Of a stretch of 64,000 bases of DNA, positions 50,223-53,886 are shown in pieces (position 1 is the first letter of the stretch; each line of letters starts with the position of its first letter). The notes beneath the pieces are model-generated. The model did not search any database, was not told the DNA's origin, and saw only the letters and a program-made list of their open reading frames with translations. The DNA lies in contig JAHLTZ010000009.1 of NCBI GenBank assembly GCA_025786725.1, positions 558,001-622,000 of the forward strand. Direction: 5' to 3'. This stretch comes from Syncephalis fuscata. Taxonomy: Eukaryota > Zoopagomycota > Zoopagomycetes > Zoopagales > Piptocephalidaceae. Both the position numbers and the translations under genes were made by a program.

Positions 50223-50474
50223 CTAACAAGCAGGCCTAGAACAGCATCCAGGATATGGCGCATCGGGATCTCCAGGAATTCTACCACATCCAGGCGAAGG
50301 GACAAAACCAGGACAGCCAACACCGCTATTAGCATTAATCATACGAATACATGTCTTTGTTTTCGTCGATTTAGCAACAGCCCGACGGAGTAGACGAGAA
50401 TCGGCATCCGCCATAGCTGCACTGGTTACAAGCACCACGACAAGAGCACAGAAAACGGTGATATAAATCTTCAT
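50223..50474 (-). CDS. Small secreted Cys/Pro/Gly-rich peptide
   Basis: 83-residue product with a clear signal peptide (MKIYITVFCALVVVLVTSAAMA) and a dibasic RR at about residue 30, a possible Kex2-type cleavage site. The mature end is rich in Cys, Pro and Gly (GCPGFVPSPGCG, PYPGCCSRPAC) with six Cys after the signal peptide. This resembles fungal secreted effector-type peptides; function unknown. It lies between the CRN gene and the two secreted kinase-fold genes. Confidence 0.65.
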   Translation of the reverse strand: MKIYITVFCALVVVLVTSAAMADADSRLLRRAVAKSTKTKTCIRMINANSGVGCPGFVPSPGCGRIPGDPDAPYPGCCSRPAC

Positions 50475-51099: not shown

Positions 51100-52465
51100 A
51101 TGAAAAAATTTATTGTTACTTATTGGCTATTCACTAATTTGTTCTGGCCAGCAATGCCTGTATTGGCAATGGATGATGAACCTGTGCAGAGACCATCCAT
51201 AATAGCACCATGGTCGATTACAAAACAAGAGAATCAGCCACCCCCATTTCCCGCAGACGGAATAAACCCCTCACAGCAATCGTCTATTTTGTTAGGTCGT
51301 GGTCCACAATTGCCAGACTATGCACCTAACGGATTGGCTCTTAAAGACTCAGGAGATTACGATGCGTATGGGCAGCGTGGCTTAATGGTTACCGAATGGT
51401 TACACCACGATGAGCAAACATCAACTGCCATGGTTTTTTTCCGTAATACTCGAGGATTACTAAAATGCACCAAAAATATTGAAGCAATTAATAAAGAATT
51501 AAGCATATTAAAAGTAGGCCATTACAACTATCGTTAAGGTTGATTAATATAATATTATGTAGAAAATTGAACAAGGTCCACAAAGCTCAGATACATTTTT
51601 GATGGCTAGCATTAATCGAGTTGCTCGTTTTTTGCACATATTTCCGCAAAACAAGTTGCGTTGTTTAATTACATCTCAATCGAGTAAAGTTACATTTGGC
51701 CAATATACTGCAAAGCTTACTTATGAAGAAAAACTCTGTTTTATGCCTCTGCTTTTCAAACAATTGATCCAAGGTAAACATCAAAAAATGTGCACCATCT
51801 ATTTACTAATGCCAAATTACTAGCGGCTTCGTTTTTACATTATGTTGGTATAGCACATAGTAATATTAATCCGGATAGTAAGTTATTGTAGTAGCTACAT
51901 TTATTGTTTTACTTATTATATTTAAACTATTACCAGATGTTTGTATGTTTTTAGATGATTACGAAAAACCAGAGTTGATGCTAGTCAACTATTCCGCCGT
52001 TTCTTTTCTTTTAAATCTAAAGGTGCTGAAGATGTACAGCATCAAGTACCGCGCGGTTCTACTTTTGGATATGACTCGCCGGAATCCATTGTCTATCCAG
52101 CGGTTAATCTTCTGAAACGCGATGCTTGGGCTATCGGAATGACCCTCTATACCGGCTTCACAGGGATCCCTTTTTATGGATTTACTTTAGAAAAACAAAA
52201 GGTGGTTGCGCTGTCCAGAAACGACTATAGCAAGGTTTTAATAGATGCCTACTATTTTGGTCGTGGCCAAGAAGAGCCGATTAAATTGGACGTGGATTCA
52301 CAACTGAGTTTTCGCTCATTTGGGCCACAAGCCATCAGACTACTTATCTCCGATCCAGCCTATCGCCCAACTCCTCTCGCCATGCTAAATATGTTGACGC
52401 GTTCAGCTAATCAGGCTTCGTCAAAAACAGATACTTATTTAGCTGAAACAGCATTTAAATCTTAG
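51100..52465 (+). CDS. Secreted kinase-fold protein, probable pseudokinase (copy 2)
   Basis: ATG 51100 begins MKKFIVTYWLFTNLFW with a signal peptide to about residue 23. A Pro-rich linker leads to a DAYGQRGL block shared with the gene at 19813-21078. About four exons; introns near 51510-51550, 51774-51830 and 51880-51935. The kinase-like C-lobe reads LHYVGIAHSNINPD in place of HRDLKPEN (catalytic Asp replaced), MLVNYS in place of DFG, YDSPES in place of APE, then DAWAIGMTLY and a closing YRPT. One missing-base break near 52000, in a CC run. Phosphotransfer is unlikely. A further secreted kinase-like gene follows 480 bp downstream on the same strand, suggesting local duplication. A role outside the cell is inference. 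Confidence 0.73.
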
Positions 52466-52947
52466 ATATTTACGAAAATAAGTGCTGCACATAAGGGGTT
52501 TAATTAATAAACTGATAATAAATGGATTAAGCTGATGGGTTGTTACATTGGCAATAATTATCGCATATAAATAGAACTGCCATGTATCAATTTCAAATCA
52601 ACGTGATACTTTTTAGTACAATTATGATGATTCTAAATGCTTTAGCCAAACTTGCCCACTACGACCTAATGAGACCATGCTATATTGGAAATATTGATTT
52701 GAACTAGCGCAACTACTTTGGTTGCCGGAGTATTAATAGGTATCAGGCACCAATTTAGGTAAACATGGGACATGCCAGAGGTGCAAGCTAGAAATGGCTG
52801 GTGGCCACATGGCATATCTTTGCTATAAAACATGCCAGGGACTCTAGGCAACTCAATAGTCCTGCATTGCTTCTCCAACCTCCAGCGCCTTTCTTTTAGA
52901 ATAACTTGGCTTCTTCATCTTCTCAAAACTATAAATACGCCAGCATA
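52466..52947. other. Intergenic between the two secreted kinase-fold genes
   Basis: Presumed promoter of the downstream gene; no element recognised. Confidence 0.4.
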
Positions 52948-53886
52948 ATGACTTTTGATCGTAAATCCATTTTCATGACTTTTGCCAGCATGGTGCTTTT
53001 GGCATCAAGCGCTATAGGCTCAAATATACCTTTGGACCATTACAAATCAAGTATGATAGCTGATGTCATTACATATTTTATACTTGGGCTAATTGATAAT
53101 CTCAAATCAAATAGAATTTACGGAAACATCGATGCTTCCTCGTTATAACAAGAACGACAACACCTATTCTTTATGTGCATTGTCCAACAAGCTTCCAAAA
53201 AGCTTTGATGTGATAGAGGTATGCTTGAATAACATTAGCTATTCTTATATTTATACCGCTTAAATACAGAGTCTCTACACAGGCCGTGCTCCTCAGGATG
53301 CCAATATTGCTATTGGTAAAATGTATTTTAGCATTCCTATTAGAAAGACTCAAGGTAACGGACAAACCTGCTACATTATGCAATACGAGGACACCACTCC
53401 ATTAGAGTACTTTTTCTTAGGCAATCGTCCTAATTATAATCATGATCAGGTGTTAGATATAATTAAGCAAATCGTAACAGGTAGGCAATGATAGCCCAAA
53501 AAGACACTGATTTTAACATATTATCAATTAGCTGTGAAGTACATGAAGGCAAAAGGCTGGATATACAACGAAAATATAACTCATGGTAAGTGACTGACTA
53601 GTCTTTTATTTAATTATTAACTTGTTTACTAGGCGGTGGCGTCAGTAAGAATGGAATCGTAAAGTTTACCAACTTTGATCGTACTTATTCCTGGGATCTG
53701 GCAGGAATTCCAGCAGATCAAATGCGGCTAAAAGTAAACAATATCAATACAGCTTTTTATCAAGCAATTGCCCAATGCTACATGAAGGCAATGGGCATGA
53801 CTAATGCTCAAGAGGCATTACGCGATGTTGAGAACGCTTATGCAGAAGTCAGAGTAGATTTTAAGCTACCAGAACATAGCCCATAA
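52948..53886 (+). CDS. Secreted kinase-fold protein, degenerate (copy 3)
   Basis: ATG 52948 (MTFDRKSIFMTFASMVLL) encodes a signal peptide ending near AIGS. After a frame discontinuity around 53050-53120 (an unrecognised intron or sequence error), the reading continues FTETSMLPRYNKND and, across introns near 53220-53271, 53481-53531 and 53585-53632, as a kinase-like fold. GKMYFSIPIRK resembles the N-lobe strand with Lys, and CYIMQYEDTTPLEYFF resembles a hinge. GWIYNENITHGG stands where HGDIKPDN would be, and IVKFTNFDRTYSW where the DFG segment would be. No APE motif is visible and the C-lobe is short, ending HSP at TAA 53884-53886. Catalytic residues are absent. Similarity to copies 1 and 2 is mainly architectural. 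Confidence 0.62.

Follow-up and report, generated by a model that had tools for sequence, protein, structure and literature searches.

Two adjacent plus-strand genes, gene 1 (51100-52465) and gene 2 (52948-53886), lie within 64,000 nucleotides of Syncephalis fuscata contig JAHLTZ010000009.1, the whole stretch analysed here and referred to as the window. We consider the chances about even that their products are two secreted pseudokinases belonging to a large Syncephalis kinase-like family and having a non-catalytic role at the host interface. The exons and motifs of the pair are as follows.

Gene 1, 51100-52465, plus strand: four exons, every proposed intron GT-AG
Gene 1 exon 1, 51100..51513, plus strand: signal-peptide-like start (51100 to about 51168), proline-containing linker and N-lobe strands
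Gene 1, 51451-51468, plus strand: beta3 Lys-Cys (RGLLKC) in exon 1, which closes on a phase-0 intron
Gene 1 exon 2, 51563..51773, plus strand: 211 nucleotides (nt), end of alpha-C through alpha-E, phase 0 in and phase 1 out
Gene 1, 51656-51673, plus strand: conserved beta5 Cys (LRCLIT) in exon 2
Gene 1 exon 3, 51824..51877, plus strand: 54 nt, end of alpha-E and catalytic loop, phases 1/1
Gene 1, 51856-51876, plus strand: HSNINPD in exon 3, replacing HRDIKPx
Gene 1 exon 4, 51955..52465, plus strand: C-lobe with SPES, DAWAIG and YRPTP
Gene 1, 51984-51995, plus strand: VNYS in exon 4, with NYS replacing DFG
Gene 2, 52948-53886, plus strand: five exons with GT-AG introns, 241 amino acids (aa), no internal stop
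Gene 2 exon 1, 52948..53050, plus strand: signal-peptide-like start (MTFDRKSIFMTFASMVLLASSAIGS)
Gene 2 exon 2, 53115..53218, plus strand: beta3 Cys kept and Lys lost, YSLC at 53165-53176, phase-0 end
Gene 2 exon 3, 53270..53480, plus strand: 211 nt, length and phases equal to those of gene 1 exon 2, alpha-E
Gene 2, 53363-53380, plus strand: beta5 Cys (QTCYIM) in exon 3
Gene 2 exon 4, 53532..53585, plus strand: 54 nt, phases 1/1, at the family position; YNENITHG (IYNENIT) replaces the catalytic loop
Gene 2 exon 5, 53633..53886, plus strand: short C-lobe without APE, DxW or RPT
Gene 2, 53668-53679, plus strand: TNFD in exon 5, with NFD replacing DFG

A first-pass annotation had described a tandem pair of secreted kinase-fold proteins lacking catalytic residues. 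The pair itself proved real, with GT-AG boundaries at all proposed introns and gene 2 open over its five exons. The motifs quoted for gene 1 (HSNINPD, VNYS) and gene 2 (IYNENIT, TNFD) were found as stated, and DAWAIG and YRPT occur in the last exon of gene 1 only, without a counterpart in gene 2. Gene 1 retains the beta3 Lys and has Asn at both the HRD Asp and the DFG Asp positions. Gene 2 has lost the beta3 Lys, the HRD Asp and the DFG Asp, with Glu at the HRD Asp position by direct reading. The family alignment misplaces the catalytic loop of gene 2, and the letters that it gives there for H, D166, K168 and N171 were not used. The dead status of gene 2 therefore follows from direct reading of the motifs, joined by the alignment for the Lys and the DFG Asp.

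Most of window 41.6-60.4 kb has a collinear counterpart on contig C97 (about 92-98% identity), probably the other haplotype; on C97 gene 1 and gene 2 both have reading frames that are open throughout. PF00069 matched the C97 copy of gene 1 with E = 9e-7 and 29.0 bits, just missing the cut-off of 31.7, and a related gene at 19.8 kb with E = 1.7e-6 and 28.1 bits. P0001, which is the S. plumigaleata ortholog of gene 1 (53% identity, DFG Asp also lost), scored 39.2 bits, above the cut-off, and all 12 family members in a Pfam scan matched the same profile. Structure prediction, which had been proposed as a check, gave a kinase fold for P0001 with an alignment that included 22 generic kinases. Profile match and topology are thus those of a protein kinase-like fold, and the pair does not carry the set of catalytic residues. 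Together, the PF00069 matches and the residue table support the original claim of a kinase fold with lost catalytic residues, and sequence and model support such a fold for the gene 1 lineage. The window also contains a kinase gene at 28.3-30.5 kb that has HGDIKPDN and DFG, shows no evident signal peptide and stands outside the secreted family.

On the family profile gene 2 scored 18.6 bits, compared to 8.5 bits for the best of 2000 shuffles, and the best non-kinase sequence among 615 open reading frames (ORFs) of the window reached 9.2 bits, below gene 2. Its membership in the family is drawn from exon lengths, intron phases and both cysteines: gene 2 has the beta3 and beta5 Cys, the 54-nt loop exon with phases 1/1 and the phase-0 intron at alpha-C. 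In our reading it is a member of the Syncephalis secreted kinase-like family with a weak sequence signal and a truncated C-lobe. Its sole database match was P0003, 'hypothetical protein BDF19DRAFT_443913, partial [Syncephalis fuscata]'.

The further copy that the first-pass annotation had placed at 19.8 kb is also real, with four exons on the minus strand.

19.8-kb paralog, 21078-19813, minus strand: four exons
19.8-kb paralog exon 1, 20737..21078, minus strand: signal-peptide-like start, N-lobe, beta3 Gln-Cys
19.8-kb paralog exon 2, 20477..20690, minus strand: beta5 Cys, alpha-E
19.8-kb paralog exon 3, 20354..20407, minus strand: 54 nt, SQYYLTPA replacing the HRDIKPx catalytic loop
19.8-kb paralog exon 4, 19813..20303, minus strand: INFS replacing DFG, C-lobe with APES, DAW and DRPD

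The last exon of gene 1 was searched against the genome, giving 41 matches at E up to 1 (haplotype copies included), and matches were modelled iteratively with a purpose-written spliced profile aligner. The aligner was given 38 loci, and 36 of them reached a score of about 117 or higher; L050 and L051, weak matches to gene 2, stayed at 17-18 and were taken out of the set. Among the 36, nine proved to be haplotype copies, near-duplicates or repeats of one gene, leaving 27 distinct genes, and contig C201 carries a second family gene beyond these. Eight further loci were hand-picked from 76 matches that also contained ordinary kinases. All eight gave a spliced match including the 54-nt exon, seven of them scoring 90-206 and L075 scoring 62.2, close to the 54.9 of the ordinary window kinase. 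With gene 2 included, 37 S. fuscata genes were modelled, gene 2 and L075 being the least secure; as some genome matches were left unmodelled, the true size of the family in this species is probably greater than 37. Median pairwise identity was 22% (36 S. fuscata genes, gene 2 left out). The idea of an expanded, diverging family is therefore supported, with 37 modelled genes in place of the 'three copies' first counted. Contig C90, apparently a segmental duplicate, matches pieces of window 44.8-55.0 kb. The near-identical copies on C97 and C90 were rejected as extra family members and were treated as haplotype and segmental duplicate instead.

In the commonest gene layout, the intron near alpha-C is in phase 0 and is followed by an exon of ~160-270 nt and then by the 54-nt exon of the catalytic loop, which has phases 1/1. 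This short exon was found in 25 of 36 family models (16 of the 27 genes, the C201 gene and 8/8 further loci); in the remaining models it is fused to a neighbour or lies outside the model. The first intron of the C201 gene is in phase 2. A protein database search returned 34 proteins, comprising P0001, P0004, a similar metagenome protein (P0005) and generic kinases. As this search missed P0002, it does not bear on absence of the family outside Syncephalis. On the window's contig, C289, near-identical family duplicates were seen at 50-53 kb and 203-209 kb (G000), one pair inverted, suggesting recent local amplification.

We compared active-site residues in a table of 39 rows, comprising the 37 S. 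fuscata genes and 2 proteins of other species. The Lys, HxD Asp, Asn and DFG Asp were all kept in 25 rows (L073 and L075 being without Lys data), and at least one catalytic residue was lost in the other 14. With 25 of 39 rows catalytically intact, this is a mixed kinase and pseudokinase family. The label 'pseudokinase family' was therefore rejected; the 14 dead rows include the pair. At the DFG Gly position intact members have Asp (21/25), Asn (3) or Gly (1), and at the VAIK Ala position Phe or Ile in all 23 with data. The HRD Arg is missing in 24 of the 25, and the residue after the conserved beta3 Cys is S, T, V, I, F, L or M in 23/23 intact rows with data. A GxGxxG Gly-loop was found in one of 36 rows with data. 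Judged by their residues, the intact members are probably active as kinases.

A Cys directly follows the beta3 Lys position in 36/36 rows with data, and another stands at the start of beta5 in 38/38. These two N-lobe cysteines are more constant than any catalytic residue and are kept in every dead row with data. Among the 22 generic kinases none has a Cys at the beta5 position; this control covers beta5 only, the beta3 column being mostly gaps in generic kinases. Since beta3 and beta5 adjoin in the N-lobe sheet of kinases, a disulfide between the two conserved cysteines is likely, and family members probably carry one.

A tree of 34 rows, 12 of them labelled dead, required 8 changes of the dead label, at least 4 of which are forced by well-supported branches. 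One clade (100/98) contains gene 1, its S. plumigaleata ortholog, L018, L007 and an S. pseudoplumigaleata protein that is the sister of L007. All five members have Asn at the DFG Asp position, so that the loss is most simply older than the split of the three species and was then kept. The dead state of the gene 1 lineage thus looks old and retained, as the aligned sequences support. L058 and L065, which have degenerate C-lobes somewhat like that of gene 2, were grouped on the tree on long branches.

Signal-peptide-like starts are supported by sequence. A signal-peptide-like stretch precedes the domain in 16/16 models that start in the first domain exon, compared to 9/36 control ORFs at the loosest threshold; at stricter thresholds the numbers were 15 versus 7 and then 14 versus 5. 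Of the 27 models, 12 have the stretch in the first domain exon, 14 have a separate short first exon and L056 has none. The assessment left out L013, L073, L074, L075 and L077. Gene 1 and gene 2 both open with a hydrophobic stretch, and gene 2 passes the test. L079 (G000:C205:3300-5200), with intact catalytic residues, has five PPLPPR motifs behind its signal-like start, of which four recur every 17 residues within near-identical repeats; these motifs resemble SH3-domain ligands.

Several results weigh against reading the pair as secreted pseudokinases of this family. Secretion was judged by a crude signal-peptide test with several thresholds and no dedicated predictor. The test passes 19% of shuffled starts and, at its loosest threshold, 25% of control ORFs (9/36), and the separate first exon of 14/27 models was picked by hydrophobicity. 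Signal peptides had been claimed for both genes, and that of gene 1 holds at the loosest threshold only, failing the middle one. The 22 generic kinases in the P0001 alignment helped the model toward a kinase fold; with an alignment of close relatives only, AlphaFold2 failed, at a predicted local distance difference test (pLDDT) score of 39.4. Against Pfam, gene 2 had a best E of 0.054 and nothing above cut-off. The ordinary kinase exon at 29.4 kb scored 49.0 bits on the family profile, above gene 2, so that the profile score of gene 2 indicates kinase likeness and not family membership, and its spliced-profile score of 18.2 falls inside the background (up to 21.5). Shuffled dead labels needed 10.1 changes on average, and 48 of 500 shuffles needed as few as 8; clustering of the dead label is therefore weak, and long branches are numerous in the tree. 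Finally, exon 4 of gene 1 in the window differs by one base in length from two near-identical copies, which breaks the reading frame, and on C90 both genes have one-base gaps. The first-pass annotation overlooked the break in the window copy of gene 1.

In this explanation, members of the secreted family would enter the secretory pathway and probably carry the beta3-beta5 disulfide; they lack a Gly-loop, and the intact ones mostly have a DFD Mg-binding motif and probably work as kinases. Gene 1 and gene 2, their catalytic machinery lost, would most likely act as non-catalytic partners, decoys or allosteric regulators, with active paralogs or proteins of the host as their targets where mycoparasite and host meet. 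A partner role is suggested by analogy with ROP5, the non-catalytic partner of ROP18, and with Fam20A, the partner of Fam20C, as described in excerpts of PMC3682881 and PMC7948968.

The main rival explanation, less likely in our judgement, is that these proteins stay inside the secretory pathway of the fungus, or exert their effect by way of it, in the manner of Fam20A and Fam20C, and modify or scaffold cell-wall and secreted proteins of the fungus itself instead of acting on the host. Their number and divergence (36 genes, median 22%) argue against this, being more typical of interaction-driven families. Signal peptides and conserved cysteines, however, would suit any secretory location, and Fam20A itself is a secreted pseudokinase that raises Fam20C activity as a heterodimer (PMC7948968, in part).

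That the pair are decaying pseudogenes of a once-active kinase family, functionless now, seems to us improbable. The frame break in window gene 1, the one-base gaps on C90 and the truncated C-lobe of gene 2 would all fit decay. However, both C97 copies have open frames, the S. plumigaleata ortholog also lacks the DFG Asp at 53% identity, and gene 2 is open across its five exons, joined at GT-AG introns, with both cysteines kept. On C90 the gaps occur in coding as well as non-coding DNA, a pattern that points to assembly error no less than to decay. The public gene model P0004 (BDF19DRAFT_437278, on C289), which represents gene 1, begins inside exon 2, without the N-terminal exon, and bypasses the stretch around the frame break. 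Over exons 1-3 and the greater part of exon 4 of gene 1, the window and C97 sequences show 6 synonymous and 9 non-synonymous codon differences, too few for a test of selection.

Just as improbable is the idea that the family branched off from the fungal FunK1 kinases, diverged and gained signal peptides: FunK1 expansions are known in fungi and 6/12 members match PF17667 at E up to 0.01, L009 above its cut-off (29.9 versus 24.1 bits), but the other five fall below (22.2, 19.0 for one exon only, 16.8, 18.2 and 16.0 bits) and every one of the six scores much better with PF00069 (69.9 to 108.4 bits). The likeness to FunK1 consists of expansion in fungi and a weak profile match in half of the 12 members; the general kinase profile fits the Syncephalis family far better, and this family has signal-peptide-like starts. 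Fam20 differs in being an animal family of few, conserved members with another active-site architecture. No Fam20 family was among the nine Pfam families listed for the 12 members, which still allows a remote link. In the parts of PMC7948968 consulted, Fam20A and Fam20C resemble our proposed system in pairing a pseudokinase with an active kinase, in their disulfides and in functioning in the secretory pathway.

Other features surround the pair. A Cys-rich gene for a protein of about 83 aa with a signal-peptide-like start lies just upstream of gene 1 in divergent orientation (50223-50474, minus strand), and a similar stretch occurs in the C90 region. Several minus-strand ORFs at 45.4-48.6 kb, parts of which are duplicated at C90, are what we take to be transposase-like, ATPase (Crinkler-like) and PD-(D/E)XK-like sequences. 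Directly downstream of the pair, from 54232 to about 54720, is a CutA1 gene (PF03091, E = 5e-11 for the first exon).

Among known systems, the WNG kinases of apicomplexans share several features with the Syncephalis family. According to passages of PMC6442604, Toxoplasma WNG1 is an active kinase despite having no Gly-loop, and its activity is lost on changing either the acidic residue that stands at the DFG Gly or the bulky one at the VAIK Ala; DFD also occurs in RNase L. Both families are parasite-secreted (in Syncephalis as predicted from sequence), lack the Gly-loop, have a bulkier residue at the VAIK Ala and an acidic residue at the DFG Gly, and contain active and dead members (PMC6442604). 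In contrast, WNG kinases have Val and Glu where the Syncephalis family has Phe/Ile and Asp, a basic residue that forms a salt bridge stands at VAIK Lys+2 in WNG1 and is absent from the Syncephalis family, and in BPK1 beta1 is replaced by a helical lid (PMC6442604). The beta3-beta5 cysteine pair of the Syncephalis family goes unmentioned for WNG in that passage. We read the likeness to WNG as convergence, judged without a tree holding WNG sequences.

The ROPK proteins (ROP2, ROP5, ROP18) are a lineage-specific secreted family with pseudokinases across the tree; about half are altered in the catalytic triad, and they have a family-specific disulfide (excerpts of PMC3682881). That disulfide, of the WC motif, lies in the C-lobe, from alpha-F to alpha-G/H, whereas the Syncephalis pair consists of two N-lobe cysteines, and export of ROPK to the host is established, whereas in Syncephalis secretion is a prediction (PMC3682881). 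A mix of kinases and pseudokinases, as in ROPK, is present in the Syncephalis family. Phytophthora CRN8 differs in being an oomycete modular Crinkler protein that is not known to be part of a large kinase family. It is nevertheless, in the portion of PMC3426532 consulted, a secreted kinase of a filamentous parasite that acts in the host. Plasmodiophora brassicae, a gall-forming eukaryotic parasite and not a fungus, has a 20-member secreted kinase cluster, which we liken to the present family by its description only (PMC12503489, in part).

Syncephalis, placed in Zoopagales, has been described as a ubiquitous mycoparasite genus (a title cited in PMC10386755). Among the open-access papers listed, judged by their listing entries and including three that name S. 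fuscata, none dealt with secreted kinases of Syncephalis or of another member of the Zoopagales, and 'kinase' was not found in PMC9816061 and PMC13304671. The statement that no such fungal family had been described agrees with this survey, in which none surfaced.

An effector role in the mycoparasite is plausible. A bolder interpretation, which we hold tentatively and with less confidence than that of the pair itself, is that a WNG/ROPK-like arsenal arose independently in a fungal parasite of fungi: dozens of secreted DFD kinases, devoid of a Gly-loop and stabilised by an N-lobe disulfide, together with pseudokinase partners that arose repeatedly, all of which would be sent into the host hypha and rewire signalling there. 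Apicomplexan parasites have so far supplied the best-known families of secreted kinases and pseudokinases. An expanded mycoparasite family of this kind, with WNG-type active-site changes, would clearly exemplify convergence and would offer candidate effectors for biotrophy of one fungus on another in Zoopagales.
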